Of a stretch of DNA of 44,029 bases, positions 94-15,408 are shown piece after piece. The position numbers were made by a program, and so were the translations under genes. This DNA is from Rivularia sp. T60_A2020_040. Lineage in GTDB: Bacteria > Cyanobacteriota > Cyanobacteriia > Cyanobacteriales > Nostocaceae. The notes under the pieces were generated by a model. It was not told the DNA's origin. It saw only the letters and a program-made list of their open reading frames with translations, and searched no databases. The stretch is from NCBI GenBank assembly GCA_015272215.1, contig JACYMD010000103.1:1-44029 (forward strand). Reading direction: 5' to 3'. The number at the start of each line of letters is the position of its first letter. Within the stretch, counting starts at the first letter, position 1.

Positions 94-1224
94 CTACTTC
101 CCAACCAACTCCTTTTTCCCTTTTACTAACCAGTAAATAAAAGATTGAATATAAAGAATTTTATGGTTTAAACGTTCTCTAACTTGAATATGATAAAGAG
201 TTCTTCCCATAAATTTATCGGAAGTTCTAACAGTAGCAAAAAGCTGTTGATATACTTGGGGAGCAATACCTTTTACTATCGGTTCAACCTTTTTCATTTG
301 CTGCCAAATTTCTACTGGTAAGTCAATTCCAAATAACTCATGAGACATGAACAGTCCCAAGAATAGCATCCGCTGACAACCCCAAAGATTAGCCTTTTGG
401 ACTACTTTTTGCCAATTTATATCTGGGTTTTTATGAATCAGCGTTGCAATATCGCACAGCCATGATAGCCGTTCCCATACGTGTCTAGAACCATGCACAC
501 AAAGGATTGGTAGCCAACATTCTAAAGGTAGATTATTTATAGTTGTACCAGCGAGTGAAAAAGGTTCTAAATCTTCCCACAAATGGTTTGCAGTGATAGG
601 AGTGATATACTTCGGTGCAATTCGCCAGTGAATTTCTAAAAAAACATTTTTATCGTTATGAATAAAATCATAAGTATGTTCGGTTTTAGAATTTAGATAT
701 TTAACTAATTCCGCGTCAGTCATTTCTATTTTTGGTCGATATCCTTGAGCTATTAATAGTTCCCGTACTGCAAAGATATCTTTTTGCTGCACGATAATAT
801 CTAAATCTCCAAACCGTCGCAGAGCCACATTTTTGTAAATTAAAGTAGCTAAAACTGGACCTTTATAAGGTAGGGCTACGATGTTTTGTTGTTTTAATAA
901 CTTCAGAAGATTAACTAACTCTCCTGTTAAAAATAAGTTGCGTTGGGCAACAGCTTGAAAATTTTTGCGCCATTGATTTAAAACTGGTTCGGGTATCGCT
1001 TCTGGACAAATATTATTGAAGCGAGAATACATTAGGGATAATACCCCATGTCTATCTGCTGTTTGGGTTAAGTATTGCCAATCTATATTTTGTTTAACTA
1101 AGGTTTTGATGCGTTCTGTTATGGCATCATTGATATCGGGGTTGAGGCAAGATAGAAGTAATTCTATTTCGGGGTGAGTATTGATTATCTGGTTTTTAGT
1201 ATTTAGTTTGGATAAGGTTTTCAT
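94..1224 (-). CDS. Lasso locus nucleotidyltransferase-family protein (N)
   Basis: This 376-residue protein fits the NTP_transf_5 type of nucleotidyltransferase. The fold signature is visible as a YKG followed by RRFGDLDIIV, giving Lys121-Gly122 and the Asp140-x-Asp142 metal pair. It is the last gene of the lasso peptide run. Homologues in paeninodin- and pseudomycoidin-type loci (PadeN/PsmN) act after the kinase; PsmN has been linked to adding hexoses to the phosphorylated C-terminal Ser. The inferred role here is further modification of the phosphorylated lasso peptide. A 321-bp gap separates it from the methyltransferase gene, so it may have its own promoter. The family call is firm; the exact donor and product are unknown. 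Confidence 0.8.
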   Translation of the reverse strand: MKTLSKLNTKNQIINTHPEIELLLSCLNPDINDAITERIKTLVKQNIDWQYLTQTADRHGVLSLMYSRFNNICPEAIPEPVLNQWRKNFQAVAQRNLFLTGELVNLLKLLKQQNIVALPYKGPVLATLIYKNVALRRFGDLDIIVQQKDIFAVRELLIAQGYRPKIEMTDAELVKYLNSKTEHTYDFIHNDKNVFLEIHWRIAPKYITPITANHLWEDLEPFSLAGTTINNLPLECWLPILCVHGSRHVWERLSWLCDIATLIHKNPDINWQKVVQKANLWGCQRMLFLGLFMSHELFGIDLPVEIWQQMKKVEPIVKGIAPQVYQQLFATVRTSDKFMGRTLYHIQVRERLNHKILYIQSFIYWLVKGKKELVGK

Positions 1225-1545
1225 AAGTTTAATTGTTCGTTTGAGGAGTTTTTAGTATTTTATTTAGAGTTTAATTTTATTGATTGGACTTTTAGAAGCA
1301 CCCTGTAATTATACTTGTATTATTTTGACGTGAATCAAATAGATTAATTTCCTTTAAATCAATAGTCTAGAGATACAAAGACGGCGCGGGTTTATTTTCT
1401 AGGGAGTCAATAAACTATTTTCACTTTGTTTCTGCTGAACCCTACAGAATTAGCGCAGGAATTATTGCTGTATCAAGTTTTAAGTATTGATTTTTGCCTA
1501 CATCATTATTAACAAATTTTAATTCAATTAGTTTGATGTAAATGT
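1225..1545. other. Intergenic gap inside the lasso locus
   Basis: This 321-bp AT-rich gap lies between the nucleotidyltransferase and methyltransferase genes. I looked on the minus strand for a second lasso precursor and found only very short frames that stop within a few codons. No hairpin terminator or convincing promoter was seen. The length suggests that the nucleotidyltransferase gene may be transcribed separately. Confidence 0.5.
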
Positions 1546-2370
1546 CTAGCTATTTGGCTTATATCCGCAAACAAGGAACAAATTAAAAGCATAGCGGTAA
1601 CTTCCCATTAAATCTGCTTGTTTCAAATCCTCTATCCACTGTTTTCCTTCAGATGCTGATATTACGCCTACTGCAATGGCAGGCTCAATGTATTTGTCTA
1701 GTAAAAATTGCTCGTGTTCTTCATCAATATTAGTGCGAACTACTTGTGTTAATTCGACAACAATGTTTTTAAGTCCTACATGTTTGTATAATAAAGGAAG
1801 TAAGATCCCAATCCGACCATTACGGAAATGACTGCATCGTCGAGCGATTAGCTTACGAGTTATGACAGAATGACCACCATCAATGGAAATGGTTCCGTAA
1901 TCCGGCTCAACTATAACAATACGAGCTCCTGACTTGGCTACTCTTACCATTTGTGCAAGTGCTTGTTGTGGATTATCTAAATGCTGTAGCACTCGCTCAA
2001 CCCGGCAGGAATTGAAGCTATTATCTGGAAATTCTAAGTTTTGTGCATCTCCAAGGTAAAACTCAACCGGGAACGATAATTTCTCAGATCGCCGCTTCGC
2101 TTCTTGTATCATGGTAATACTCGAATCTATTCCGATAACACTACCGCTGATTCCGACAAATTGGGCAAGCGATCGCACATCGTCTCCCGTACCACATCCA
2201 ACATCAAGAACGCGATCGCCTTCACGTACATCAAGTAAAGAAAGCATTTGAGACTTAATTTTCTGCCAAAGAGGATTCGCACCTTGTCGATCCAATCGCC
2301 GCACATATTTCATCGGATCGCTAGTGCAATCAAGGTTACTGTAGCCTGATTCTTTTGAAGGGGTTTGCAT
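1546..2370 (-). CDS. Class I SAM-dependent methyltransferase in lasso locus
   Basis: This 274-residue protein is a UbiE/Methyltransf_11-like class I methyltransferase. Motif I is VLDVGCGTGDD at residues 54-64, an acidic residue (GID) follows in motif II, and GDAQNLEFPDNSF is the usual motif III/IV region. There is no signal peptide or membrane segment. It lies 78 bp downstream of the kinase gene on the same strand, so co-expression with the lasso genes is likely. Known lasso methyltransferases (StspM type) esterify the C-terminal carboxylate; this one is not obviously that type. Its substrate could be the lasso peptide or its phosphate or sugar group. Tailoring is inferred from position only; an unrelated metabolic substrate remains possible. 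Confidence 0.75.
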   Translation of the reverse strand: MQTPSKESGYSNLDCTSDPMKYVRRLDRQGANPLWQKIKSQMLSLLDVREGDRVLDVGCGTGDDVRSLAQFVGISGSVIGIDSSITMIQEAKRRSEKLSFPVEFYLGDAQNLEFPDNSFNSCRVERVLQHLDNPQQALAQMVRVAKSGARIVIVEPDYGTISIDGGHSVITRKLIARRCSHFRNGRIGILLPLLYKHVGLKNIVVELTQVVRTNIDEEHEQFLLDKYIEPAIAVGVISASEGKQWIEDLKQADLMGSYRYAFNLFLVCGYKPNS

Positions 2371-2448
2371 GGTTACACAGTTCCTTTACTGAATATTGAA
2401 GACTTATCAAATAAGAAGACAGTAGCTTTAGGACTTCCAAAAAATAAT

Positions 2449-3420
2449 TTATTTAATAACGGTAGTGCGAGCATCTTGCTCGCTTGAAATATATCGAGCA
2501 AGATGCTTTTCTACAAGCTGTACAGTTTGAGGAAGTAATGAAATATCTCTTGGTCTTAGCAGCCGATAGATAGAAATCTGTTTGGCTAACAACATTAGTT
2601 TAATAAAATAAGATGCCCTATCAAGCTGAAGTAACTCGTCGCCAAACCGGGTAATATATGAGTTACTAATTAAATAGGTTAAAATCTCTTGAGGTTTGAG
2701 AGGTTTGATTTCTAAAGTGTCACCTGTACCAAGTACGTAAATGTGCTTTAGAGGTACGGGCTTTTGGATAAAACCATCGCTAACTAAACAATTCCTTTTC
2801 TCAAAATCAGTAATTAACTGTGGTAGGTTTTCCGGATTCTTTCCTAAAGAAGATACAGCATCAGGCCAAAGTTTGAGTTGTGGAAATGCAGGCAGAATAG
2901 ACGGTTGACTGGAATTACAAAAATCTATGGCTGCAATGTCATCAGTAAGTAAGTTGTGTCCGCAAGCGTGGAAAGTGGCTGCTAGCGTTGATTTACCCCA
3001 TCCCTTGTTTCCTAAAAATGCAACAGCATTTCCATTAACGGCAACTGCGCTTGCGTGAAGGGTTAGGCATCCTCGTTGATGAAGTAGCACCCCCATAGCT
3101 GCTCCCAAGATAAACAGACGTATTTTATCCATATCTGCTTCTGGTTGAGCATCGATGATGATTTCTTTGCCATCTCGAATCAAAAACATCCCTACTCCCT
3201 GCCAGAACAGATACATACCCTCTGGCGTGAGTTGAAAGTTGTATTGAGCCGAATTTGCTGTTAATGGGCTGTAGTCTAACTTATTAAACCGAATCACTGC
3301 ATCTGCATCTATTTTCTTGCTAACAATCAACTCTGGTAACGGTAGTTTGGAATCAATCGTTAGCCCGAAAGCTTGATAATAATAGCTGTTTGTGGCGATT
3401 TGAGATGTTGAATATGTCAT
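2449..3420 (-). CDS. HPr-kinase-like lasso peptide kinase (K)
   Basis: This 323-residue protein resembles the HPr kinase/phosphorylase C-terminal domain used in lasso loci (PadeK/PsmK). It has HASAV at 122-126, a P-loop GNKGWGKST at 137-145, and TDD at 159-161. PadeK phosphorylates the hydroxyl of the precursor's C-terminal Ser, and the precursor encoded just upstream does end in Ser. It is a stand-alone enzyme with no HPr partner in view. The last 20 residues (from EKHLARY to the stop) are encoded by an inverted repeat of a dispersed family, so the native C-terminus may have been replaced. The start at 3420 has only a weak AAGA ribosome site. Confidence 0.85.
   Translation of the reverse strand: MTYSTSQIATNSYYYQAFGLTIDSKLPLPELIVSKKIDADAVIRFNKLDYSPLTANSAQYNFQLTPEGMYLFWQGVGMFLIRDGKEIIIDAQPEADMDKIRLFILGAAMGVLLHQRGCLTLHASAVAVNGNAVAFLGNKGWGKSTLAATFHACGHNLLTDDIAAIDFCNSSQPSILPAFPQLKLWPDAVSSLGKNPENLPQLITDFEKRNCLVSDGFIQKPVPLKHIYVLGTGDTLEIKPLKPQEILTYLISNSYITRFGDELLQLDRASYFIKLMLLAKQISIYRLLRPRDISLLPQTVQLVEKHLARYISSEQDARTTVIK
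2470..2507. repeat. Dispersed inverted repeat forming the kinase 3' end
   Basis: The arms AGCATCTTGCTCG (2470-2482) and CGAGCAAGATGCT (2495-2507) are perfect 13-bp inverted copies around a 12-nt loop, preceded by GGTAGTGCG. The element is translated in frame as the end of the kinase. A related, decayed copy lies inside the replication gene at about 40006-40063. Confidence 0.85.
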
Positions 3421-3605
3421 TATCTTACAATTGAAAAATTAAAAATATTTGGTATTTCTTAAATGTTTTTAAGAGCGGTTAAATATATGTATTAGCACTT
3501 GATGACAAGACAGTTAAAATGAAAAAATTATCTCCTTATGTATAGTAAAGAGTAATTTTTTCCTTTCTTTATACTCTTCACACTTACTTCCTGCTGTTTT
3601 TAAGG

Positions 3606-3644
3606 TAAGTAGAGACTCTCTACCTAGGATAGAGTCTCTACTTA
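3606..3644. repeat. 14-bp hairpin downstream of lasso precursor
   Basis: TAAGTAGAGACTCT (3606-3619) and AGAGTCTCTACTTA (3631-3644) form a perfect stem with an 11-nt loop. It sits 50 nt past the precursor stop codon and before the kinase gene. No T-tract follows on the minus strand, so it looks more like an mRNA stabiliser or processing site than a classical terminator. GTAGAGAC-type palindromes recur at 13411 and 37277. Confidence 0.7.
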
Positions 3645-3656
3645 GCTGTTAGAAGA

Positions 3657-3670
3657 AATCCAATTGGATT
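3657..3670. repeat. Perfect 14-bp palindrome in precursor 3' region
   Basis: AATCCAATTGGATT is a perfect palindrome 25 bp after the precursor stop codon. It could be a protein-binding site or part of the 3' untranslated structure; nothing more can be said. Confidence 0.4.
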
Positions 3671-3694
3671 ACATTAATGATGGACTATCCTTCC

Positions 3695-3844
3695 TTATGA
3701 GACAATATTATTTATATCACCATTTATAGGTGTACCTTGAGGTACATCTACACGTACTGGTGGACCACCTTGTTGGGTAATCGTAACAACAGTTCCGTGA
3801 ACAATAAGGGAAGGTGCTGCGTATGCTTTCTTTTGTGCGTTCAT
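3695..3844 (-). CDS. Lasso peptide precursor (A)
   Basis: This 49-residue gene lies between the cyclase and kinase genes. The leader holds the lasso recognition motif Y-x2-P-x-L-x3-G-x5-T at Tyr8, Pro11, Leu13, Gly17 and Thr23 (YAAPSLIVHGTVVTIT). The core then reads QGGPPVRVD and ends in GDINNIVS. Thr23 at the usual -2 position gives a core starting at Gln25 and a 9-residue ring to Asp33; a start at Gly26 gives an 8-residue ring to the same Asp. The only other core acid, Asp43, is too far for a lasso ring. The C-terminal Ser49 matches the kinase. An AGAGGA ribosome site lies 7 nt before the ATG. Confidence 0.92.
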   Translation of the reverse strand: MNAQKKAYAAPSLIVHGTVVTITQQGGPPVRVDVPQGTPINGDINNIVS

Positions 3845-3851
3845 TATTTTG

Positions 3852-3857
3852 TCCTCT
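3852..3857 (-). promoter_or_regulatory. Ribosome binding site of the lasso precursor
   Basis: AGAGGA on the minus strand lies 7 nt before the precursor ATG. It is better than the sites of most neighbouring lasso genes, as expected for a peptide made in excess over its enzymes, and it fixes the start at 3844. Confidence 0.7.
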
Positions 3858-3934
3858 GTTAATTTAATTTACTGAGAAATACAGCTTTCGAGAAGTTACA
3901 CCCTACGGTTGAGCGAACCTCTAGCCTAGCTGTG

Positions 3935-3967
3935 CTGTTGGATGTTTTTATCACAACTATCCAACAG
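3935..3967. repeat. Hairpin between cyclase and precursor genes
   Basis: CTGTTGGAT (3935-3943) and ATCCAACAG (3959-3967) are a perfect 9-bp inverted repeat around a 15-nt loop, in the 161-bp gap between cyclase stop and precursor start. No T-tract follows on either strand. It could be an RNA processing or stability element that uncouples precursor levels from the enzyme genes, or an operator. Confidence 0.6.
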
Positions 3968-4005
3968 GACAACCATCTAAATGCTTTTGTTGAAAAATGC
4001 GCTTC

Positions 4006-5943
4006 TTAGGATTGCAAATCAGTATGCTTTAACCAAAGTGCAAGATTCACAGCCCACCAAATCGTTATCACCTCATTATCCGAAGCTTTACCACAGATGA
4101 ATTTTTGGTAAGCCTTATCAAGAACCGATATATTTACATATTCTTCAATCGACTTTGGTTCTTTAATAAGTAATTCTGCCAAACGTTCTTGCTCAAATTT
4201 TAACAATCCCCTGTCAAAGCTAGGAGCTAGATTCCCTTTATCTCCTCGCCATTGAACTTCTTTTGGTAAGATATTTTCCATACCGCGACGCATAACTACA
4301 CGAGTCCACCCTTGATTCATTTTTTGATTTGCTGGTAGAGACAAGCAAAATTCTACAAGTCGTTTATCCCAGAAGGGGTAGCGCACTTCAATGGCAAATG
4401 CGGCAGCAGCTTGGTCAAGAATTTCTAAGGTATATGGTAAAACACCAGAAGTTAGAGCTTGATGATGTTGGTGTCTTTGGTTAGGTAAAGGACGATTACG
4501 TTGTTTTTCAAAGTCTTGTAAGCGCTGCTCTAAACTAATTCTCTGAATAAAGCTAGGGTTGAGTTTTGCTTCCCAAGGGGATTGTTTAATCAGAGGATGC
4601 CATATTCGTCTAGTTACGGATTGGGAAATTCTATGTAGTTGTCTAAGAGGCTTGTACTTGCGAAACGCTCGCTTAAAAACATAAGTCTGCATATATTGCC
4701 ACAGTAACTGCCAAAATGAGAGGTGAAAATTCTTGGCAAATCCATGCATTTCTCGGCACAAGCGAAACCATTTTCCGGCAAGTGCTAGCTCTGCCATATA
4801 CCCAACACCATGAGAAACAGTGTTGTCACCATCAAATCCATCAAGTATAACGCGGACGTTCTGATTTTGAGCAATTCCGTATATACCAGAGTTTAGATAT
4901 AAATTGCAAGCGAAAAGTGGTTCTCCTTGATGCCACAGTACACGTTCTATGTCATTTAGAGGACTAATCTTATCTCCGTGTAAGTAATTTTTGACAGTTC
5001 CGCCTTGTGTCAGTACAGTGTTAATATAATTACGTTCATCCGATTCTGGCACTTCATCAAAGACTGCTGAGAAAGTAGACAAGGCTTCCCCACCGTTTTC
5101 ACTCAAAATTTTCCTTGCCGTACAAGTAATGGAAGATGAATCTAATCCACCACTAAGCATAGAACCGACTGTATGAGCGCTTCGCATTCGACAGCGTACT
5201 GCTTCGGTAAAGATTTCGCGAAATTTAGCGGCATACTCCTCGTCAGAACCCAGATGTAACTCCCGTGTCGGATCTAGACTCCAGTAAGATTGTAATTGTA
5301 TTGCTTTATGACTTACCGTCAAGCTATGAGCAGGAGGAAGTCGAAGAATTTCTTGATAGAAAGTAATCGTTTTGTCTTCAAAATTGGAAGTTAAATAATC
5401 CCCAATCCTAACTTCATTAACCTGACGCGGCACCTCTGACAAGCAAAATAAAGCCTTAATCTGGCTACCAAAAACGAAAGTATTGTTAGAAGAGTAATAA
5501 TAGAAAGGCTTCACCCCAAAATGATCACGAGCGCAAAATAACGTCTGCCTACGCTCATCCCAAATCGCAAATGCAAAGTCACCTAGTAAATGCTTTGGAC
5601 AATCTTCGCCCCATTTCTCGTAAGCTGCCAATATCAGTTCGCTATCTGCAATCTTATCAGCAGGACGATTATTTATCTGTAAAGCAGCTATCAATTCCTC
5701 ACGATTATCTATCCGAGCATCGGCTGTAATTACTAAATCACCCCTTTGATTACAATAAGGCAGCTTTTCAAACAGAGATTCAGGAGTAGTCCATAACATC
5801 CGATGTCCCAAACCAACGCATCCATCAACCCAGATATCTGCACCATCTGGTCCGCGATGCGCCAATATATCAACCATTTTTGTCAAATTTTCGCGGTCTA
5901 CAGGACGACCGTCAAGGTAATAAATACCTACGATGCCGCTCAT
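4006..5943 (-). CDS. Lasso peptide cyclase, asparagine-synthetase-like (C)
   Basis: This 645-residue protein is an AsnB/McjC-type enzyme. It has an N-terminal glutaminase-like domain (about 1-200, with RGPDG near 30) and a synthetase domain whose ATP-binding PP-loop SGGLDSSS is at 264-271. Lasso cyclases adenylate the ring Asp or Glu of the core and join it to the core N-terminus. The protein starts Met-Ser-Gly rather than Met-Cys-Gly, so the catalytic Cys of glutamine hydrolysis is absent, as expected for a cyclase that uses an amine rather than ammonia. Its ATG overlaps the leader peptidase stop by 4 bp (ATGA), indicating translational coupling. Confidence 0.93.
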   Translation of the reverse strand: MSGIVGIYYLDGRPVDRENLTKMVDILAHRGPDGADIWVDGCVGLGHRMLWTTPESLFEKLPYCNQRGDLVITADARIDNREELIAALQINNRPADKIADSELILAAYEKWGEDCPKHLLGDFAFAIWDERRQTLFCARDHFGVKPFYYYSSNNTFVFGSQIKALFCLSEVPRQVNEVRIGDYLTSNFEDKTITFYQEILRLPPAHSLTVSHKAIQLQSYWSLDPTRELHLGSDEEYAAKFREIFTEAVRCRMRSAHTVGSMLSGGLDSSSITCTARKILSENGGEALSTFSAVFDEVPESDERNYINTVLTQGGTVKNYLHGDKISPLNDIERVLWHQGEPLFACNLYLNSGIYGIAQNQNVRVILDGFDGDNTVSHGVGYMAELALAGKWFRLCREMHGFAKNFHLSFWQLLWQYMQTYVFKRAFRKYKPLRQLHRISQSVTRRIWHPLIKQSPWEAKLNPSFIQRISLEQRLQDFEKQRNRPLPNQRHQHHQALTSGVLPYTLEILDQAAAAFAIEVRYPFWDKRLVEFCLSLPANQKMNQGWTRVVMRRGMENILPKEVQWRGDKGNLAPSFDRGLLKFEQERLAELLIKEPKSIEEYVNISVLDKAYQKFICGKASDNEVITIWWAVNLALWLKHTDLQS

Positions 5944-6374
5944 AATTTAATTCCTTCAAGGGATGGTAGTTGAATGTAGCGTGGTAGATCCGGTAGATAA
6001 CCGATGACGACGTATCCCTGATATTTAATCCAAGCGTGGGCTTCTAATCCTGACTCGGCTTTCGCAACCCCGATGCACAATTCGGGAGAAAAACCACTAT
6101 GACTCATTAATATTTGTGTAGTTAAAGCCCGCGCTAGACACTTTGCACCACCTGGCATATAGCGGGTTGCAACATTGACACCCCAAATAATCTTACCCAG
6201 AGTTACATTTGGAAGTGGCAATTTTTTTGTACTGAGTTTATTTATTAGTTTTAATAAGATGCGAAACTCTAGTAACCACAACCCTAACCTAATTGCTGTT
6301 AGTAAACAGAACGTAATAAATAGAAAGTAAAAATCAACTTTTCTCAGATTCCCAAGTTTACGCAGCAGTTTCAT
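5940..6374 (-). CDS. Lasso leader peptidase, transglutaminase-like (B2)
   Basis: This 144-residue protein is a stand-alone lasso B2 protease (Transglut_core3). The Cys-His-Asp triad is visible as Cys79 in GGAKCLARAL, His113 in AHAWIKYQG and probably Asp129 in GYLPDLPRY. A hydrophobic stretch at about 14-34 may hold it at the membrane near the exporter. It cuts the leader from the precursor after B1 binds the leader. Its start overlaps the B1 gene by 17 bp and its stop overlaps the cyclase start by 4 bp, so B1, B2 and C form a tight operon. Length and motifs agree with split-B lasso systems. Confidence 0.93.
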   Translation of the reverse strand: MKLLRKLGNLRKVDFYFLFITFCLLTAIRLGLWLLEFRILLKLINKLSTKKLPLPNVTLGKIIWGVNVATRYMPGGAKCLARALTTQILMSHSGFSPELCIGVAKAESGLEAHAWIKYQGYVVIGYLPDLPRYIQLPSLEGIKL

Positions 6375-6675
6375 TTATTACTTGAATTAACCCTGCGGTT
6401 TTTAAATTATTCAGTAGTGAGAACAGGTCGTTTGTACAAGCTTCTGCTTCAACCTCGTACTCTTCCAAAAGTGTCTGTTTGATTTCTTTTACAGCTTTTG
6501 GCTGCTCGATCAAATCCCAAACTCGCGCCCCTACTTCATTCAAACCGTGGTAAACTCCGGTCTTCATATTCAAAATGACTGCTTCGCCGCCCAAGTCCGA
6601 AGAGATTTGGTCTGGAGCCGCTACTACTAATGATGATTCTGCAATTTCCTGTTGGTCGGGTTGTGGATAACTCAT
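6358..6675 (-). CDS. Lasso leader-binding protein, PqqD-like RRE (B1)
   Basis: This 105-residue protein is a PqqD-family RiPP recognition element. The sequence EAVILNMKTGVYHGLNEVGARVWDLIEQPKAVKEI, described here by its parts (beta strands, then LNEVGARVWDL, then a helical acidic region), is the classic fold. It binds the leader motif and delivers the precursor to B2. An AGAG just before the ATG is a modest ribosome site. It starts the tightly overlapping B1-B2-C block, so a promoter probably lies in the gap upstream (6676-7108). Confidence 0.92.
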   Translation of the reverse strand: MSYPQPDQQEIAESSLVVAAPDQISSDLGGEAVILNMKTGVYHGLNEVGARVWDLIEQPKAVKEIKQTLLEEYEVEAEACTNDLFSLLNNLKTAGLIQVINETAA

Positions 6676-7108
6676 TTTCTCTAACTGTTAGTGCTAGTTG
6701 GTTGGTGTTGTTTCTGCTGTATCAAATATAGTCTGTAGTTCGGCGATATCACGATGTTGCTTTTTACACTTCACTGATTCTTTAAATTGTCGTTGTATCG
6801 TATTTATACTTGATAAGATAAAAGTCTAATTTGGGCGTTTCTGGTTTGATATGATGTATCAAAGAGGTATAATTTATTTTATTTTCATAACTCGGAAGTT
6901 ACCCCCCTTAATCCCCCCTTATAAAGGGGGGAAAATAAAAAAGTCCGGTTCCCTCCCCTTTACAAGGGGAGGGTTAGGGTGGGGTAATTCTCTGCCTGAT
7001 CAAGTTGCAATTTGCTGTATGTTACCTCTTTCCTCTGCGCTTCCCACTTCTCTAGTAATATGAAGTCACAATTTCATATTTTGATTTAACAATGCCGGAA
7101 TTCTTTAT
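6676..7108. other. Gap between exporter and B1 genes
   Basis: This 433-bp gap divides the exporter gene from the B1-B2-C-A-K-M run. It holds the C/G-rich hairpins at 6901-6979, a short CTAACTGTTAG palindrome at 6681-6691 next to the B1 start, and an AT-rich stretch at about 6780-6850 where a promoter could lie. I could not identify clear -35/-10 boxes. A 70-codon plus-strand frame here is just repeat sequence. Confidence 0.5.
6901..6979. repeat. C/G-rich repeat hairpins, terminator-like
   Basis: Two perfect hairpins sit side by side: CCCCCCTT/AAGGGGGG (6913-6920 and 6924-6931) and CCCTCCCCTT/AAGGGGAGGG (6951-6960 and 6964-6973). On the minus strand, the second hairpin is followed by a T-rich run, so it could stop transcription after the exporter gene. 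A similar element lies at 43936-43994, pointing to a dispersed repeat. Confidence 0.65.
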
Positions 7109-8926
7109 CTACATATACTGACTCGCTTGAATCTCAAATAAATGAGCATAAGTACCCTTTAATTCCATCAGTTCATTATGAGTACCACCCTCGACTATGG
7201 TTCCATTATCCATTACGTATATCCGGTCAGCCATTCTTACGGTAGATAAACGGTGACTAATCAAAATCGCGGACTGATTTTTAATTAATTGACGGAACTT
7301 TTCAAATACCTCATACTCGGCTTTGGGGTCCATTGCGCTGGTGGGTTCATCCAAAACAATTAACTGGGAGTCTCGTAAAAATGCCCGCGCTAAGGCGACT
7401 TTCTGCCACTGACCGATACTTAGTTCTTCTCCTTTGTCAAATAATTTACCCAAAATAGTATCGTAGCCTTTAGGTAATTTAGTTATGACATCATCCGCAC
7501 CAGAACGACGGGCTGCTTCTATGATGCTGTCGCTGTGCGGTGGTAAGTCGATGTTTCCTAACCAGATATTCTCTTGGGCGGTAAAATGATATTTGGCATA
7601 ATCTTGAAAAATCACGCTGATTTGACGGCGTAATTCTGCTGTTTTAAATTGACTTAGATCAATTCCATCAATGGTGATTCTGCCAGATGTCGGGTCGTAC
7701 AGTCTACATAAAAGTTTAATTAAAGTAGTTTTACCAGAACCATTTTCCCCGACTAAGGCTACTACTTCCCCCGGTTTAATTGTCAGGTTAATATTTCTCA
7801 GCGCTTTGCGGGTAGTGGTAGAGTATTGAAAACCCACATTTTCAAATTCAATCCCAGTTTTGAACGGATGAGGAATCGGTTTGGGGTTTGGTGGGTCAAT
7901 TAACTTGGGTTCAATGTCAAGGAATTCGTAAAGATTTGCTAGAAACAAGTTATCTTCATAAAGTGCAGATAAGCTGTTCAATAAACCTTTAATATTACCC
8001 TGTCCCCGCTGCAAGGCTTGATAGTACAGCACTAAATCCCCTAAACGCAGCACACCATTAATCGTTTGGTAGATGATATAGGAATAAATTATAAATATCA
8101 GAATACCAGCGATCGCCTCTACCGCAAAGTTAGCTAAAGAACGTCCGGTTAAGATAGATAAACTTTCTTTATATATCTGTCGGCGGATGCGAAGATACCA
8201 CTGACTGAAGTAATTACCTAAGTTAAACAGCCGAATTTCTTTGGCAAATTGGTCTACTGTCAGCATATAGCCGATGTAACCAGCCTGACGCTCCATCGGT
8301 GTAACTTTGCGCTGCCATTTATACAAAATCCGAGAATATTTCACCCGCACTAACATCGCCGGAAGGGAAACAATAAACAGAACACCGGGTATTCCCCAGT
8401 GCAGCGACAGCAACAAAGTAATCATCCCTACCAAAGAAATTGCATTTTGTCCAGCATCTGCTAAACGATTGAGAATTTGGGGAGGTCGGTAAGGTGCTTC
8501 TTGTTGCGCTCTTTGCAATACATCATAATACAGTGGATTCTCGTAGTACTCTAAATCGGCTGCGATTGATTTAGCTTGGATAATTCCCTGCATATAGTCG
8601 GTTACTCGTTGGGAATGAGCGCTAGTAACTAATTGTGCTAGGGAGTTGGCAAGGTTAGTTAATAAGGTGACTGCTGCTGCGAGGACAACGAAAAATATCA
8701 CATTATTAAAAGCTGCGGCTTTATCGGCAGTGGTGAGACTGGCAGCTACTGTATCTATAATTAGTTTGGCGAGATAAATTGAGATTACTGGCAATACACC
8801 TTGAACAACAAGGATGATTACACGGGCAATTGTCCAACGAGGGCTACTTTGCCACACTAATCGCAAAGCAGGCAATAGACGCTGCGTACTTTGTAATTTT
8901 TCTTTGATTTTTTTGCCTGCTTGCAT
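7109..8926 (-). CDS. Lasso peptide ABC exporter (D)
   Basis: This 605-residue protein is a half-size ABC exporter: a six-helix transmembrane domain (about 30-310) fused to an ATPase domain. Walker A is GENGSGKTT at 393-401, the signature is LSIGQ at 502-506 (variant of LSGGQ), Walker B is LIVLDEP at 522-528, and the switch His is near 558. There is no N-terminal C39 peptidase, which fits a system whose leader is removed by B2 in the cytoplasm. It most likely exports the mature lasso peptide and may give self-protection. It is the first gene of the locus in transcription order, but repeat hairpins separate it from B1. Confidence 0.88.
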   Translation of the reverse strand: MQAGKKIKEKLQSTQRLLPALRLVWQSSPRWTIARVIILVVQGVLPVISIYLAKLIIDTVAASLTTADKAAAFNNVIFFVVLAAAVTLLTNLANSLAQLVTSAHSQRVTDYMQGIIQAKSIAADLEYYENPLYYDVLQRAQQEAPYRPPQILNRLADAGQNAISLVGMITLLLSLHWGIPGVLFIVSLPAMLVRVKYSRILYKWQRKVTPMERQAGYIGYMLTVDQFAKEIRLFNLGNYFSQWYLRIRRQIYKESLSILTGRSLANFAVEAIAGILIFIIYSYIIYQTINGVLRLGDLVLYYQALQRGQGNIKGLLNSLSALYEDNLFLANLYEFLDIEPKLIDPPNPKPIPHPFKTGIEFENVGFQYSTTTRKALRNINLTIKPGEVVALVGENGSGKTTLIKLLCRLYDPTSGRITIDGIDLSQFKTAELRRQISVIFQDYAKYHFTAQENIWLGNIDLPPHSDSIIEAARRSGADDVITKLPKGYDTILGKLFDKGEELSIGQWQKVALARAFLRDSQLIVLDEPTSAMDPKAEYEVFEKFRQLIKNQSAILISHRLSTVRMADRIYVMDNGTIVEGGTHNELMELKGTYAHLFEIQASQYM

Positions 8927-9540
8927 AATTTAAATAGTTTTTATTGATACATAAATATGATAGTGACCACAGAAGTCAGGTTTTGATCAAAATTTGTCCG
9001 CGTGTTACAAATACTTATGCAAAAACCCGACTTCTCAACCGGAATGTTCTGCTTCCCAGTATCGGTTCCCCTGGGAACTATTATTTCGAGGCTCTGTCTC
9101 CGATTACTCTCTCAATCGAATATCTTTTAGTACGCAAATACTATAAAAAAATGAAATAATTTATTGCTTACAAATACCTAAGTTAGCTTACAACGAAGAG
9201 TTTTTTAGGTATATGATATTACACGATTGCTTTTGGCAACGTCATTTTCTATAAGTTTTACTAATTGTTTGACTGCGTTTTTACCCGTCTGGGACTGCAA
9301 ATCCCAGTCTGATAGCAGAAGTCTATTAAAATGGACTAAAAATATTACAGCTTTACGTTATTTATATTTTTATTGATATTTTTGATTATTTAGCTAATTA
9401 TACGGCTCTGTGCAATATATAAGTTATCTTATACAAGTATACAAGCAATCTAACTACTTTTTAATAAGTAGTTTAAGTGTCAATTCACTTGATATACAAA
9501 GAATATTTGGATGATTTGAACGATTTCGATATCAAATCAA
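8927..9540. other. Non-coding region upstream of lasso exporter
   Basis: This 614-bp gap holds the imperfect inverted repeat at 8971-9035 and a small hairpin, CTGGGA/TCCCAG, at 9289-9307. The 71-codon plus-strand frame starting at 8944 runs across the repeat and is not convincing. The promoter of the lasso exporter should lie in the first 200 bp, but no clear boxes were found. Confidence 0.5.
8971..9035. repeat. AGAAGTCGGGTTTT-type inverted repeat, copy 1
   Basis: AGAAGTCAGGTTTT (8971-8984) and AAAACCCGACTTCT (9022-9035) are 14-bp inverted arms with one mismatch. The same arm sequence recurs perfectly at 32740-32803, and its core forms the tight palindrome at 10369. This suggests a small mobile or palindromic repeat family. 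Confidence 0.75.
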
Positions 9541-9861
9541 TCAATCATCTCTGACTTTTTTAAGTAAACCCATCCACATATCCGACGGGTTTGCATAGTA
9601 ATCAATTTGCTCCACTTGATATCGACAAGATGCAGAACCAATTTGTAATATAATATAATCGCCACATTTAACATCTTTACTTTGTGCTGTCATATAAGCT
9701 TTCATTGGGTTTTCTGCAATCTCAAACACGTAGTCACTTCCACGGACGCATTCCGTAAAATCATGGGTTTTGTTTTTTTGCTGCCGTAATTTTTTGAAAA
9801 TTGAATCCGTTAAAGACAAAAAAAATACGCTGGGGTTGATGCCTGACTTACTAGAAGACAT
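9541..9861 (-). CDS. Conserved hypothetical protein, 106 residues
   Basis: I do not recognise a named family. The protein begins MSSSKSGINPSVFFLSLTD and has an acidic, compact body (FTECVRGSDYVFEIAENP, CGDYIILQIGSASCRYQVEQIDYY) with no signal peptide or membrane segment. The C-terminal half looks like a small beta-barrel. A longer frame begins with TTG at 9951, but the extra 30 residues are basic and look like read-back into non-coding DNA, so the ATG at 9861 is preferred; neither start has a good ribosome site. It stands alone between the lasso locus and the tRNA gene. Confidence 0.6.
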   Translation of the reverse strand: MSSSKSGINPSVFFLSLTDSIFKKLRQQKNKTHDFTECVRGSDYVFEIAENPMKAYMTAQSKDVKCGDYIILQIGSASCRYQVEQIDYYANPSDMWMGLLKKVRDD

Positions 9862-10091
9862 AAAATAATTAAAACCACTAATTGGCAGTCTCTTAAAGAA
9901 ACTATGTTTGTAGATTTCTTTTAACCTGGAAATAGGTAAAAGCAATCCCAATATAATAGCAAGATTAATTAGTCTTTAAGAAATAAAGTTCGCGGTAGCA
10001 ACGAGCTTGCACTACGCGATCCCATTTTTCAGTTACCCATAACAAAACCGGATTACTATGGTTTTTTGGGTAAATTCAAGACAGAAACTAC

Positions 10092-10120
10092 TTGACACTA
10101 CCCGAACCTATTGTTATACT
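10092..10120 (+). promoter_or_regulatory. Promoter of tRNA-Gln
   Basis: TTGACA (10092-10097) and TATACT (10115-10120) are spaced by exactly 17 bp, a near-consensus housekeeping sigma promoter. The expected start of transcription is about 10 bp before the mature tRNA. Confidence 0.85.
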
Positions 10121-10137
10121 CACTAAAGTAAAGCTGA

Positions 10138-10209
10138 TGGGGCGTCGCCAAGCGGTAAGGCAGCGGGTTTTGGTCTCGCCATTCCTAGGTTCGAATCCTA
10201 GCGCCCCAG
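10138..10209 (+). tRNA. tRNA-Gln (anticodon TTG)
   Basis: This 72-nt sequence folds as a cloverleaf. The acceptor stem is TGGGGCG with CGCCCCA, and the discriminator base is G. The anticodon stem-loop is GCGGG-TTTTGGT-CTCGC, with TTG in the anticodon position. The T-arm reads CCTAGGTTCGAATCCTAG. No CCA is encoded. The U1-A72 start pair is typical of bacterial tRNA-Gln. A consensus promoter precedes it and an intrinsic terminator follows, so it is a single-gene unit. Confidence 0.96.
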
Positions 10210-10241
10210 TTTACTAAGTTGAAAACATTTTGCAGGTAATG

Positions 10242-10271
10242 ACCTTTCTAAGATTAGAAAGGTTTTTGTTT
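10242..10271 (+). terminator. Intrinsic terminator of tRNA-Gln
   Basis: ACCTTTCTAA (10242-10251) pairs with TTAGAAAGGT (10254-10263) and is followed directly by TTTTGTTT. This is a standard factor-independent terminator 33 nt past the tRNA. Confidence 0.85.
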
Positions 10272-11190
10272 ATCAATTTTGATTCGTTAATATTATGACC
10301 GCTTGACTGCTTGTGGATACCCCAAGCTGATACTAAATATCGAAATTAGGATAATGTACGGTGTTCATATCCCCGACTTCTTGAAGAAGTCGGGGATCTA
10401 AATTCTCATATATGATTTAGGATTGCTATATATTTTCTACATATATTCTTTAAACAATCTTTGTAATGTATGTAAAGCATCACGTTGTTACATAAAAGAT
10501 TTAGAGCAATAATAAATACTAATTATGAAGGCGATCGCGCTGTCCTGTCATTTAGCTCTATAGTAAGCATTAATCAATTACTCGGTTCTTAGTTCAATGA
10601 GCAATTGGGAGGTAAATATTATAGTTTAAACATCTGTTAGAGGAACGATTGGGGTAAAAGTGATGTATGTAAATTTATTGACCCCAGGTTTTGTCCGGAA
10701 AAATTTCTATGATATGAGTAATAATACAGTGAGCTAAATTTCGGTTAAATTGCCGCATTTATCAGTAAGAAAAGGTCTGAAGTTGTGAATTTACATAAAT
10801 AAATTAATAAATTAATTAATCTTACTGTAGTCAAAACTGAATCTGAAAATTTTCAACAACTAATCAAAATTTAACTATAAATTTAACTATAATTTATTAT
10901 AGATGTAAATGAATCAACAAACGTCGGCTACGTAATGTTACTGTATATATAGGGCATCGCCAGTTGTCGGCTGGTATCTTCAATACTTCAAGCAGGGTAG
11001 TGTATCTGTAAGATAGGTTTTTAACAACCTTTGAGGAAAGCTTGGAGATAGTCTGGAGTGTAGGTTTTCTTAACTTCCTTAGAAGTATAGGGTGCATCGG
11101 TGTTGTAAAGGCTAAACGGAAAACTAAATAGTGCCTTTCGGGAATGAAAGCCAAAAATTACGTAAGTAATACAAGCAATTAAAATTTACT
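10272..11190. other. Non-coding region upstream of the first Wzc gene
   Basis: About 920 bp without a convincing gene. It contains the perfect palindrome at 10369-10397, one HIP1 site near 10532, and tandem TTTAACTATAAA-like repeats at about 10870-10900. The 85-codon minus-strand frame at 10897-11154 has a biased, arginine- and leucine-rich translation with no family resemblance and was left out. The promoter of the Wzc-like gene at 11191 should lie here, but no clear boxes were recognised. Confidence 0.5.
10369..10397. repeat. Perfect palindrome ATCCCCGACTTCTT
   Basis: ATCCCCGACTTCTT (10369-10382) and AAGAAGTCGGGGAT (10384-10397) flank a single central G, giving 14-bp arms. The GACTTCT/AGAAGTC core is shared with the inverted repeats at 8971 and 32740. 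Confidence 0.8.
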
Positions 11191-13401
11191 ATGACTATGC
11201 TGAAGTCAGAAAAAAATCCTTACCTCTTTTCTCAAGCAGGTACCCATTTAAATGATGTTGAAGAAGGTGGATTGAATTTAGGACAAGTAGGAGCAGCTTT
11301 ACGACGTAGAGCATTATTAATTGTTGGTGTTACGGGGGTAGTAACAACTGCTGCGGTATTGAAAGCAGAATCAGAACCTCCGATATATCAAGGTCAATTT
11401 GATATTTTAACTCAACCAGTCACCGGGGAAGGTAAAGCGATAGCCAACCTTCCTCAAACTTTGGGTTCTAGAGATGCCATAGCACCTCCGGAGACAGAAA
11501 AAGATGTTGCCACAACGATTCAAGTTTTAAAAAGCCCGTTAATATTAAATCCAGTTGTAGAAAATCTTCAGAGCAAATATCCAAATCTGGAATACGAATC
11601 ATTTATTAAGGGTTTAGTTATTGGATCGAAACAGAAAGATATTTTAACAGTAGGATATGTATCTGGAGATCAGCAGCTAGTTAGCGATGTTTTAAAGGAA
11701 ATTGCTGATGCTTATCTAAACTATAGCTTGAAGGAACGTCAGCAAGATATCGATCAGGCGATAAACTTTGTTCAAGGGCGAATCACCAACGGTGGGTTAA
11801 GACAGCGAGTTGAAGAGCTACAAAATAAACTGCGAACTCTCAGAAGTGTAAATAATTTAATTGAACCCGCACAACAATCTCAACAAGTATCCGCTCAAAT
11901 TGCCAGTTTTACCCAACAGCAATTAGAGAATCGGGTGCAGTACGAGCAAATGCTAGCTCAGTATCAAGAATTACAAAAGGAGTTGGCGCAACAGCCAGGA
12001 GAGCGAGTTGGGAATTCCATACTCAGCGAAAATCCTCGTTATCAGAAAATTCTCGACGAAATTCAGAAAATTCAGATTGAAACTAAAAGTCAGTCTGCTG
12101 TATTTACAGATAATAATCCGACGATACAGGCTTTACAGCAAAAGACAACTAACTTGATTCCAATGCTGAATGCAGAGGAAAACAGAGTCCAAAACGAATT
12201 TCAAAATCGCATCCAAACATTACAAGCTCGCGATTTATCTTTATCTGATAAAATCAATCGACTAAATGCAGAGTTGAGAAATTTGGCAACAGTGACTCGT
12301 GATTACGAAAATATTCAGCGGGAGTTACTGATTGCTACAGAAGGATTAAACCAGTTTTTAACCAAGCAGCAAGCTTTGGAAATTGAGAAGTCTCAGAAAC
12401 AGCAACCTTGGAGATTATTAGATCCTCAACTGACTAAAGTTGAACAACCGGAAGCTGTTTCCCAAAGTGCTAGAAGAAACTTGGCTTTGGGTGGAGCTTT
12501 AGGTTTGCTTTTGGGTGTTGGTGCTGCTTTGGTTATAGACAAGTTGAGCAATGTTTACTATACTTCTAAAGATTTGAAAGAAACTACCAGATTACCGTTA
12601 TTAGGAGTAGTTCCTTTCAGTAAAGAACTTGCTAATAGTGCCAAGCAAGATGCCCAAGTTGGTCGGGTTCATCAAGCAACTCGTGCGGCATTTTTTGAAG
12701 TTTTTCGTTCTCTCTACACCAATATTCTACTTTTGGGTTCCGATACACCGATTCGTTCACTCGTGGTGAGTTCGGCTACACCAGAAGACGGTAAAACTAC
12801 GGTGGCTATTCAGTTGGCTTTGGCAGCAGCAGCAATGGGACAACGGGTATTATTAGTAGATGCAAATCTTCGCTGTCCGACTATACATCAGCGTGTCGGA
12901 TTAATGAATATTCAGGGGTTAACAGATGTGATTTCCTCTGAGTTGGAATGGAGCAATATTATAGAGCGATCGCCACTTGAAGATAATTTGTATGTCATGG
13001 CAGCAGGTCCGATTCCACCGGATTCTACCAGATTACTCGCTTCTGTGAAAATGCAGGATTTAATGAACGAACTGCATAATAGTTTTGATTTAGTAATTTA
13101 CGATACAACACCCATAGTTGGTTTTGCGGATGCTAATTTGTTAGCTGCAAATACTAATGGTGTAATGTTAGTGGCTGGTTTGGGTAAATTGAAGCGTACT
13201 GCATTCGCTCAAGCCCTAGAAGAAATTCAAGTATCCGGTACTGCGATTTTAGGCTTGGTAGCAAATAAGTCTAAGGAATCAACAGCTATTTCTCAAAGTA
13301 ATTATCAACAATATTACAAGATGAGTGTCGAAAGAGTAGGGGAAGATGATTTAGTTGAGTCGAGAAATTCCTCTTCAATAAGTAAAATTAAATTACATTA
13401 A
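11191..13401 (+). CDS. Wzc-like polysaccharide co-polymerase / tyrosine autokinase
   Basis: This 736-residue protein has a Wzz chain-length domain between two membrane helices (about 40-57 and 430-450) with a long coiled-coil periplasmic region, then a cytoplasmic BY-kinase domain. The kinase motifs are SATPEDGKTT (about 529-538), the Walker A' VLLVDANLRCP (about 553) and Walker B LVIYDTTP (about 633). A short Tyr cluster (NYQQYYK) near the C-terminus could be the autophosphorylation tail. Such proteins control the length and export of capsule or exopolysaccharide chains together with Wzy, which is encoded nearby at 16463. It reads towards the leftward glycosyltransferase operon and ends at a bidirectional palindrome. 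Confidence 0.9.
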   Translation: MTMLKSEKNPYLFSQAGTHLNDVEEGGLNLGQVGAALRRRALLIVGVTGVVTTAAVLKAESEPPIYQGQFDILTQPVTGEGKAIANLPQTLGSRDAIAPPETEKDVATTIQVLKSPLILNPVVENLQSKYPNLEYESFIKGLVIGSKQKDILTVGYVSGDQQLVSDVLKEIADAYLNYSLKERQQDIDQAINFVQGRITNGGLRQRVEELQNKLRTLRSVNNLIEPAQQSQQVSAQIASFTQQQLENRVQYEQMLAQYQELQKELAQQPGERVGNSILSENPRYQKILDEIQKIQIETKSQSAVFTDNNPTIQALQQKTTNLIPMLNAEENRVQNEFQNRIQTLQARDLSLSDKINRLNAELRNLATVTRDYENIQRELLIATEGLNQFLTKQQALEIEKSQKQQPWRLLDPQLTKVEQPEAVSQSARRNLALGGALGLLLGVGAALVIDKLSNVYYTSKDLKETTRLPLLGVVPFSKELANSAKQDAQVGRVHQATRAAFFEVFRSLYTNILLLGSDTPIRSLVVSSATPEDGKTTVAIQLALAAAAMGQRVLLVDANLRCPTIHQRVGLMNIQGLTDVISSELEWSNIIERSPLEDNLYVMAAGPIPPDSTRLLASVKMQDLMNELHNSFDLVIYDTTPIVGFADANLLAANTNGVMLVAGLGKLKRTAFAQALEEIQVSGTAILGLVANKSKESTAISQSNYQQYYKMSVERVGEDDLVESRNSSSISKIKLH

Positions 13402-13410
13402 AAATTGTAA

Positions 13411-13431
13411 AGACGTAGCACTGCTACGTCT
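13411..13431. repeat. AGACGTAGCA palindrome between convergent genes
   Basis: AGACGTAGCA and TGCTACGTCT flank one central C. The element lies in the 53-bp gap between two convergent genes and may act as a bidirectional terminator. It belongs to the same palindrome class as 37277-37309. Confidence 0.75.
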
Positions 13432-13454
13432 CTTATCGATTAAATTACACCAAG

Positions 13455-13934
13455 CTAATTATCTGGAGATTTCAAAGCTTGATCTAGTACTTGACGAGCT
13501 TCTTCTGCTTTTTCTCGAGCTTCTTTATAGCGTAGATTAGCTTGAGCAAAATTTTTCAGAGATTTAAAACCTTCTTTGAGGTGAGAAATTTCTTCCTCAC
13601 TGACGGATTGATCTGAAAACAAGATATCAACTAATTTACGAACTTCCAAAGCTTCGCTACGTGTTTCTTGAACTTTCAACTTCAGAGTTGCGAGATTGCT
13701 CAGAAGTTGAACTGCTTCTATAATTGTATCTTCTCCGCTAGCAGTATCCATTGATGCTTCTTTTACTTCAATTAATTGCTGAGGGCCAAATCCTTCTTCG
13801 AGTTGGGTGGGTAAATCACCAGCTTCCATAATTTCCATCAGCTTATCCATTGCTTTTTCACGAGCTTTGTTGGAATCTTTGCCAGGAACGGTTAAGATGA
13901 TTTCTGGACTTTGAACAATAGTATAACGAACCAT
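13455..13934 (-). CDS. Conserved hypothetical cyanobacterial protein, 159 residues
   Basis: No named family is recognised. The N-terminal third (MVRYTIVQSPEIILTVPGKD, then KAREKAMDKLMEIMEAGDLP) looks like a small alpha/beta unit; the rest is strongly helical and charged, with Lys/Glu/Ala-rich heptads near the end (RYKEAREKAEEARQ) suggesting a coiled coil. There is no signal peptide or membrane segment. A TTG-started frame adds ten residues upstream, but the ATG at 13934 gives a cleaner N-terminus. It is convergent with the Wzc-like gene and separated from the glycosyltransferase operon by 287 bp, so a link to polysaccharide synthesis is uncertain. Confidence 0.65.
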   Translation of the reverse strand: MVRYTIVQSPEIILTVPGKDSNKAREKAMDKLMEIMEAGDLPTQLEEGFGPQQLIEVKEASMDTASGEDTIIEAVQLLSNLATLKLKVQETRSEALEVRKLVDILFSDQSVSEEEISHLKEGFKSLKNFAQANLRYKEAREKAEEARQVLDQALKSPDN

Positions 13935-14221
13935 ATTTAGGCAGAAGTATTGCCGATAAATCAAACCAAGTTATTAATTTTAACTTAAAATGTGCCTAGA
14001 TTATCATTTATTGTTTTTTTGTAATTAAATAAAAAATGCCAAAAATCGGGTATTGTTTTTCTATTTCCTCAAAAATGTAAATAAATATAATTCATCTCAA
14101 ATTTGTTAGCACGGGAATTATATGTTTGAACGCAGAGGAGCGCAAAGGTTCACGCAGAGGGGCGCAAAGTTAGGGATGGATAGTAAAGTGAGTAATTTGT
14201 CAATGGTTTAGAAAATAAATA

Positions 14222-15331: not shown

Positions 15332-15350
15332 TTAAGCAATTTTAATAACT

Positions 15351-15402
15351 ATCAACTGTCCACTGTCCACTGTCAACTGTCAACTGTCAACTGTCAACTG
15401 TC
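15351..15402. repeat. Heptamer repeat array (CAACTGT)
   Basis: About seven tandem copies of a 7-bp unit (CAACTGT with CCACTGT variants) fill most of the gap between two glycosyltransferase genes. The same unit recurs at 18991, 24972, 28769, 30087, 31576 and 36233. Confidence 0.9.
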
Positions 15403-15408
15403 CAAAGA

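Follow-up and report, generated by a model that had tools for sequence, protein, structure and literature searches.

Here we report the analysis of a lasso-peptide biosynthetic locus in a 44,029-bp stretch of DNA (the window) from the cyanobacterium Rivularia sp. T60_A2020_040, which forms an entire contig (C133) of a 6.0-Mb genome in 139 contigs. Using a list of open reading frames (ORFs) and profile searches, we identified eight intact ORFs on the minus strand between positions 94 and 8926, transcribed in the order exporter, leader binder, leader peptidase, cyclase, precursor, kinase, methyltransferase, and nucleotidyltransferase (D-B1-B2-C-A-K-M-N; Table 1). N ends 93 bp from the contig end, and thus the operon could extend past it. 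A first-pass annotation of the same DNA had proposed a lasso pathway of eight same-strand genes with these roles. The intact ORFs and the cyclase, peptidase, and leader-binder matches above curated cut-offs confirm the existence of such a locus, with a threaded product predicted, and the eight assignments agree with the profile matches and conserved residues.

Table 1. Features of the lasso-peptide locus and of its putative mosaic structure in the window.
Feature	Positions	Strand	Details
ABC exporter D	7109-8926	-	605 aa; ABC_tran 123.5 bits; assigned to resident frame; 98% identical to D of L069 and L070
Leader binder B1, PqqD/RRE (RiPP recognition element) type	6358-6675	-	105 aa; NF033536 82.4 bits (cut-off 80); assigned to resident frame; 99% to L069
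Leader peptidase B2, transglutaminase-like	5940-6374	-	144 aa; NF033537 96.1 bits (cut-off 33); assigned to resident frame; 93% to L069
Lasso cyclase C	4006-5943	-	645 aa; NF033535 965 bits (cut-off 525); apparently chimeric, N-terminal part resident, remainder probably imported
RDHFGVKPFYYY codons (C residues 139-150)	5494-5529	-	strongly conserved motif; most crossovers adjoin
Left crossover (putative)	5440-5480	-	nucleotide identity to L069 drops from 90-95% to 45%
Precursor A	3695-3844	-	49 aa; leader MNAQKKAYAAPSLIVHGTVVTITQ; NF033528 lasso_cyano 32.1 bits, just below cut-off 33
Core peptide (predicted)	3698-3772	-	QGGPPVRVDVPQGTPINGDINNIVS; predicted Gln1-Asp9 ring, C-terminal Ser
HPr-kinase-like K	2449-3420	-	323 aa; Hpr_kinase_C 21.0 bits (cut-off 33.3); HprK_rel_A 35.1 (cut-off 200); in putative cassette
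Class I S-adenosylmethionine (SAM) methyltransferase M	1546-2370	-	274 aa; Methyltransf_31 83.7 bits; in putative cassette
Right crossover (putative), M-N intergenic region	1260-1300	-	identity to L069 back to 85-100%
Imported cassette (putative)	1286-5465 (about)	-	C residues ~160-645, precursor, kinase, methyltransferase
Nucleotidyltransferase N	94-1224	-	376 aa; PF14907 212.5 bits (cut-off 31.2); assigned to resident frame; 91% to L069 and L070

The cyclase is of the asparagine-synthetase type with an ATP site, as seen from its match to NF033535, by its name a model for cyanobacterial enzymes, and from the motif SGGLDSS; its predicted structure matches the folds of TsnB9 and asparagine synthetase B, and position 2 is Ser, not Cys, in 100% of the aligned members from the window's family. 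The matches to NF033536 and NF033537 identify a lasso leader binder together with a transglutaminase-like peptidase. In the alignments of family members, Cys79 and His113 of B2 are conserved in 100%, as are Asp140, Asp142, and Lys121 of N, and the columns of His122, Lys143, and Asp160/161 of K in 98-100%; we take these columns of K, Cys79/His113 of B2, Asp140/Asp142 of N, and SGGLDSS of C, which is near-invariant in the family too, to be likely catalytic positions.

The three search counts that follow include the window's own genome. The cyclase was found above cut-off in 16 of 386 cyanobacterial genomes of a phylum sample, in 84 of 217 genomes of the window's family (E 1e-100), and in seven of eight genomes of its genus (E 1e-80). 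The 98 family loci that were fetched and annotated, referred to by L numbers, contain 108 cyclase units, among them three atypical units of L192 that are excluded from the correlations, changepoints, residue conservation, 88-unit trees, and triplet walks described below (at most 105 units). Their commonest gene order is B1-B2-C-A (one to several)-K-D-N. Downstream of the cyclase, K is present in 103, N in 56, and M in three of the 108 units, with contig ends concealing K or N in some of them; the five units without K are those of L189 (contig end), the three of L192, and the first of two tandem units in L151, and N lies on the other side of the cyclase in L164, L174, and L183. The kinase and nucleotidyltransferase are indeed of the paeninodin and pseudomycoidin kinds, as annotated initially, but presenting their occurrence in a cyanobacterium as new was an overstatement: they do not set this strain apart, the kinase being normal and the nucleotidyltransferase common in the family, and the distinctive gene is the methyltransferase, rightly seen as unusual, which is rare and has similar cores beside it in all three units. 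Two tandem cyclase units at one locus occur in L042, L070, L071, L140, L151, L152, L158, and L161, and such units are a possible local source of cassettes.

The precursor has the expected features of a lasso substrate, namely the leader motif YAAPSL, the junction ITQ with Thr at position -2, and Asp9 of the core. Precursors were called by motif, which yielded 166 ORFs, a few of them spurious, that were filtered to 138 from the family; seven of the 108 units gave none. Given Thr at -2, core position 9 is acidic (D/E) in 107 of these 138 precursors, and for these reasons Asp9 is taken as the ring acceptor. The window precursor is 77-79% identical to the two precursors of L042 and 65-67% to those of L105. 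The cores of the three loci with M, QGGPPVRVDVPQGTPINGDINNIVS in the window and QGGPPIRVDVPFGTPLGDNGITDVTS and QGGPAFRVDVPFGTPLGPNGITDITS in the others, share the type QGGPxxRVDVPxGTP...S, and L173, a locus without M, has the core QGGASSTDVPQGSTVGPNGIGDVAS.

Comparison of the window with L069, a locus of the same genus, revealed a mosaic. At the DNA level the two share 95% identity both in the flank (9102-15813) and over D, 93% over N, and 88% over the stretch 5135-6808, which holds B1, B2, and the cyclase front; within 1264-5134 there is a single 197-base match at 68%. The proteins divide likewise, with 99% identity for B1, 93% for B2, 98% for D, 91% for N, and 97% for cyclase residues 1-150, as against 44% from cyclase residue 200 onward and 39% for K. 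In the nucleotide profile, identity to L069 drops at 5480-5440 and recovers at 1280-1260. The same frame with other cassettes occurs in L070 and L071 of the genus. The putatively imported part is nearest to the second unit of L042, L173, L105, and L031, whose B1 and B2 are 42-61% identical to those of the window; it shows 56-62% identity to the second unit of L042 and L105 (60% to L042 for K), and 38-44% to L069, L070, L071, and L062 of the genus. A triplet walk along the window cyclase gave a ratio of 39:3 before residue 160 and 38:128 after it, and none of 20,000 permutations was as extreme. Sliding identity and nucleotide profiles place the left break at codon ~155-165 of the cyclase. A break at codon ~269, where a blastn alignment ends (5135), was rejected, since that alignment is stretched by the conserved N-terminal part. 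No foreign base composition was found: GC content is 38.9% in the cassette, 35.3% in N, 41.7% in B1, B2, and the cyclase front, 41.3% in D, and 35.1% in the rest.

Trees of the two parts of the locus conflict. For 37 hand-picked units, one of which (L031) comes from outside the family, the front tree (B1, B2, and cyclase residues 1-150) joins the six genus units in one clade with support of 99 in the Shimodaira-Hasegawa-like approximate likelihood-ratio test (SH-aLRT) and places the window beside L069 (86). In the back tree (cyclase from residue 200 and K) the genus is scattered, requiring five changes against a shuffled mean of 5.6 (157 of 500 shuffles as low), and the window joins the other units with M, the second unit of L042 and L105 (SH-aLRT 99). 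Approximately unbiased (AU) tests, in which all groups except the genus were named after the trees had been seen, rejected on the back data the genus clade (p 1.7e-38) and the pair of window and L069 (p 0.0014), and on the front data the group of window, L042, and L105 (p 3.6e-5). Trees of the 88 family units having B1, B2, C, and K, with 12 genera of at least three units, gave 14 label changes (minimum 11) with eight of 12 genera in one clade for the front, and 30 label changes with one of 12 genera in one clade for the back. With N as an extra marker in 53 units, the 28 genus changes fall between the front (24) and the back (32) on the same rows.

A break at a similar place recurs among the relatives. 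In 67 pairs whose cyclase residues 1-150 are at least 88% identical, the part from residue 200 is above 80% identical in 46, at or below 60% in 17, and in between in four; the 17 swap pairs share members and reduce to eight disjoint pairs. Changepoints in the swap pairs fall at residues 132, 147, 150, 151 (five), 152 (two), 155, 161, 162, 165, 174, 185, and 316, which puts 13 of the 17 within residues 147-165, on RDHFGVKPFYYY or shortly past it. The predicted cyclase structure (predicted local distance difference test score, pLDDT, 89.7) places residue 151 where strand 148-151 of the amidotransferase-like domain turns toward strand 155-159. The best front and back relatives strongly differ in 11 of 105 units, and all 11 triplet walks, with peaks at 112-183, were unmatched in 2000 permutations. 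A switch at the nucleotide level was found in L129, whose cyclase sides with L146 up to codon ~120 (90-98% identity in five of six 20-codon blocks, 83% in the sixth) and with L125 past codon ~140 (83-100% from codon 141). Across pairs in the family, identity from cyclase residue 200 onward correlates with that of K (rho 0.89) and hardly with that of residues 1-150 (0.18), which in turn correlate with B1 (0.46) and B2 (0.45); leader and core correlate with the cyclase part from residue 200 and with K at 0.49-0.56, and with B1 or cyclase residues 1-150 at 0.14-0.25, although pair correlations are not independent observations. D is kept with the frame (90-98%) in four of the eight disjoint pairs (window/L069, L042/L158, L070/L071, and L164/L174).

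Taken together, these data suggest, with a probability of roughly 0.86, that the locus arose by natural recombination and directs the synthesis of a modified lasso peptide; its apparent crossover inside the cyclase gene was missed by the first-pass annotation. The sequence evidence is strong that, in the window and in at least several relatives, the locus took shape through the exchange of a cassette comprising part of the cyclase, the precursor, and the kinase. According to the proposed scenario, a resident frame (D, B1, B2, the first ~150-160 cyclase residues, and N) would have been inherited with the genus, and a cassette holding the remaining ~490 cyclase residues, the precursor, the kinase, and the methyltransferase, with its nearest relatives in other genera, would have been acquired, its source being either a different organism or a tandem copy. 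The exchange may have proceeded by homologous recombination at the conserved DNA encoding RDHFGVKPFYYY in the cyclase, with a second recombination point in the intergenic stretch after the last cassette gene. Such a swap could work because the generic leader motif (Y-x-x-P-x-L ... Thr-2) would suit the resident leader binder and peptidase, while the core-holding part of the cyclase would travel with its core and kinase.

Several observations weigh against this scenario or limit it. The best relatives of the back part reach 62% identity in the cyclase and 60% in K, which places the donor outside our sample. The kinase and the precursor score below the curated cut-offs in Pfam and NCBIfam searches; they are assigned from their position, their conserved residues, and their relatives. 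The changepoints are spread, one lying at residue 316 and the others at 132-185. In L129, B1 (88/86%) and B2 (93/91%) are equally close to L146 and L125, and therefore this case demonstrates the break in the cyclase but not a separate frame. B2 correlates with the cyclase from residue 200 (0.43) and with K (0.48) as much as with cyclase residues 1-150 (0.45), the leader correlates with B2 too (0.44), N and D hardly correlate (0.05), and neither of these two can be assigned cleanly to one block. D differs (39-70%) in the other four disjoint pairs (L129/L146, L075/L144, L161/L163, and L178/L185, in the last of which B2 differs as well at 57%), so the right edge of the exchange varies. Finally, the back tree of the 88 units retains some genus signal, its 30 changes comparing with a shuffled mean of 49.9 (none of 200 as low).

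The same pattern could in principle have arisen without recombination, if the C-terminal cyclase part, the precursor, and the kinase had diverged fast in place under selection; this part of the cyclase is indeed less conserved across the family, and core, cyclase, and kinase should co-evolve, as the rho of 0.89 would fit. Nevertheless, divergence in place cannot bring the window part nearer to the second unit of L042 and to L105 than to its own genus, and it agrees neither with the bimodal distribution of identities in the 67 pairs nor with the nucleotide switch of L129 from L146 to L125 within the cyclase, which makes it very improbable. A history without import is also conceivable, in which tandem paralogous units were lost differentially or underwent gene conversion with one another in one lineage; the tandem cyclase units present in the genus and the family give it a basis. 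Loss alone, however, does not explain why the break falls within the cyclase gene. Conversion from a paralogue explains this, and in this respect it agrees with cassette exchange. We consider such an origin within one lineage unlikely, although by no means negligible, and cassette exchange by recombination remains the preferred explanation.

Two further alternatives concern the product. The core might begin at Gly26 of the precursor, giving a Gly1-Asp8 ring and a leader ending in Gln-Gln; Gly1 is common in known lasso peptides. This start would shift the conserved Thr to position -3, while Thr at -2 places the acceptor at position 9, matching the acidic residue in most family precursors, and, given Thr at -2, 20 of the 166 precursor ORFs begin with Gln; a Gly26 start is thus doubtful in our estimation. 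The methyltransferase, in turn, might be a bystander outside the pathway, considering its general class I SAM fold and its homologues of 41-52% identity in nine loci that lack a lasso gene in the fetched DNA. Against this, M directly follows K in all three loci with M, although the gene after it varies (N in the window but D in both L042 and L105), and the cores of these loci share QGGP..RVDVP..GTP. The three units also form one clade in the back tree and not in the front tree, so that M appears to have moved with the cassette. A bystander role is therefore quite improbable, and we favor a tailoring enzyme acting within the predicted pathway.

M was modeled with AlphaFold2 at a pLDDT of 93.2, and its best Pfam matches are Methyltransf_31, 25, and 11. 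At E 1e-60, M matches in 12 of the 217 family genomes, own included, and stands at a lasso locus in three, namely the window, L042 (Calothrix sp. NIES-4105), and L105; the DNA fetched around the other nine matches contained no lasso gene, with M near a contig end in L107 and L112, and a search of the 386-genome phylum sample at E 1e-70 returned no M except that of the window. Sequence and fold searches for a substrate returned among the best matches LahSB (6uak), according to its PDB title a C-terminal methyltransferase of the biosynthesis of a ribosomally synthesized and post-translationally modified peptide (RiPP), with 21% identity and a template-modeling (TM) score of 0.5 over the general class I fold, as well as phosphoethanolamine methyltransferases. 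M resembles the C-terminal carboxyl methyltransferases LahSB and lassomycin/StspM in being a SAM enzyme in a RiPP locus, StspM being likened by description only. It did not classify with the aspartimide-type protein isoaspartyl methyltransferases (PIMT): its PCMT score (38.9 bits, cut-off 20.3) lies well below that for Methyltransf_31, and the Asp6 of that class is lacking, core position 6 being Val, Ile, or Phe in the three loci. Arg7 is present in all three core types with M and absent from L173 and L031, a set too small to conclude. In L105, a JmjC-type oxygenase gene (11250-12509) is located between the precursors and the kinase and a second methyltransferase (6783-7412) between D and N, perhaps for further tailoring of the same core type.

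The window core ends in Ser, and K contains the His, Lys, Asp, and Asp residues of the paeninodin-type HPr kinases, its whole-protein score being below cut-offs. For the known lasso kinases, the reported target is a C-terminal Ser (PMC8498205, PMC9266682). Among the 113 units with a precursor and a kinase, 28 have a C-terminal Ser, a trait that requires 13 changes on the kinase tree (500 shuffles: mean 25.4, none as low) and is found in five of five units of the window's clade, 14 of 17 of the wider clade, and five of 70 of the big clade; the tree was built with FastTree, which gave long-branch warnings. That most kinases of the family adjoin precursors without C-terminal Ser had escaped the earlier annotation, and, since known kinases target this residue, most of them would act elsewhere or not at all. 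A G-S/T-x-(x)-D/N tail motif occurs in 93 of 109 precursors without C-terminal Ser (500 shuffles: mean 23.9, highest 37), a figure inflated by related precursors, which are not independent observations. Our guess is that most kinases of the family phosphorylate the internal Ser/Thr of this motif rather than a C-terminal Ser. The precursor of L069 (11142-11318) provides an example of an internal G-S-x-D-type tail motif beside a kinase.

The locus combines features of several known systems. Like the paeninodin type (PadeK, ThcoK, and SyanK), it couples an HPr-kinase homologue with the His-Lys-Asp-Asp motif named for lasso kinases (PMC9266682) to a core ending in Ser, the reported phosphosite (PMC9266682, PMC8498205), and lasso kinases are described from Proteobacteria as well (PMC8498205). 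Unlike that type, it is cyanobacterial, its K scores low against HPr-kinase models and lies in a putatively mobile cassette, and M and N are present; K is likened to PadeK by description and residues, not by direct alignment. The kinase and nucleotidyltransferase recall PsmK and PsmN of the pseudomycoidin locus, and N is a PF14907 protein with conserved acidic residues, the type to which we presume PsmN to belong; N is likened to PsmN by description, not direct alignment. The window locus differs from the pseudomycoidin locus by the methyltransferase, by the gene order, and by N, which stays with the frame on cassette swap in the genus. PsmN is reported to add one or two hexoses to phosphorylated Ser (PMC9266682). 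The cyclase family and leader type (NF033535, NF033528) are those of other cyanobacterial lasso loci, such as Cyanocohniella LLY and Roseofilum, for which B1, B2, and C genes have been described; the passages describing them name no kinase, nucleotidyltransferase, methyltransferase, or recombination (PMC9332814, PMC9967302).

In its in-gene crossover, which would move the substrate-specific part while the frame stays, the locus resembles non-ribosomal peptide synthetase (NRPS) assembly lines, whose specificity domains recombine; here, by contrast, the enzyme is a RiPP cyclase, and the precursor and kinase would move with it. Lasso peptide engineering is constrained by the cyclases, and it is to our knowledge an open question which part of these enzymes decides the accepted core. 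A crossover place that nature has used repeatedly, with joint transfer of precursor and kinase, suggests that this unit is separable, and it supplies a set of natural hybrids. We give about even odds to a broader proposal, in which lasso cyclases of this family are naturally modular and a crossover at the beta-turn at or just after RDxxGxKPxYY swaps the core-handling part together with precursor, kinase, and optional tailoring genes, with B1, B2, and in half of the pairs D staying in place. The hybrids would be functional, and the turn would thus mark a natural cut-and-rejoin place in lasso cyclases. The data also suggest that the swapping of cassettes generates a good part of the lasso diversity in this cyanobacterial family, and that the kinase is a member of the core-specific unit. 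Considering the frequency of the cyclase and of K, the family would be a rich source of lasso peptides accompanied by a predicted kinase, the majority lacking the C-terminal Ser of known cases. In searches of open-licence literature, the titles and abstract starts listed contained nothing on recombination within lasso cyclases or on kinase-bearing cyanobacterial lasso loci as a class, although earlier mention in the paeninodin, RODEO, and pseudomycoidin papers is possible.

Additional observations concern the surroundings of the locus. An Rfam scan of the window matched only the tRNA, and promoter and terminator scans gave counts near those of shuffled controls (28 vs 26.1; 9 vs 6.9). The region between D and B1 (6850-7050), within the presumed resident frame, contains G-run and C-run repeats and lacks conservation in L069, where two 100-bp blocks show 29-37% identity. 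Upstream of the exporter, a 136-aa ORF with a TTG start and no Pfam match occupies 9541-9951, and this DNA is 94-97% identical in L070/L035. The stretch 11191-38116 looks by eye like a polysaccharide region, with two Wzc-like proteins, several glycosyltransferase-like ORFs, an ABC protein, and an acetyltransferase-like ORF; the one ORF profile-scanned there, 19111-19881, is a methyltransferase. A search of a plasmid collection with the cyclase gave three records at 32-38% identity, none cyanobacterial. One of them, a relative at 38%, lies on a plasmid from the archaeon Halopiger xanaduensis (NC_015658.1, 23612-25462), where the annotation under the match names a lasso B2 protein. Both PF14907 matches of the window's genome lie at lasso loci, the second being L092 (G000:C60, 3749-8123), a lasso-like locus that looks decayed; it encodes, besides a PqqD protein and a cyclase truncated to 348 aa, a 595-aa fusion of B2 and nucleotidyltransferase (Transglut_core3 and PF14907) like that described for Firmicutes loci (PMC8498205).

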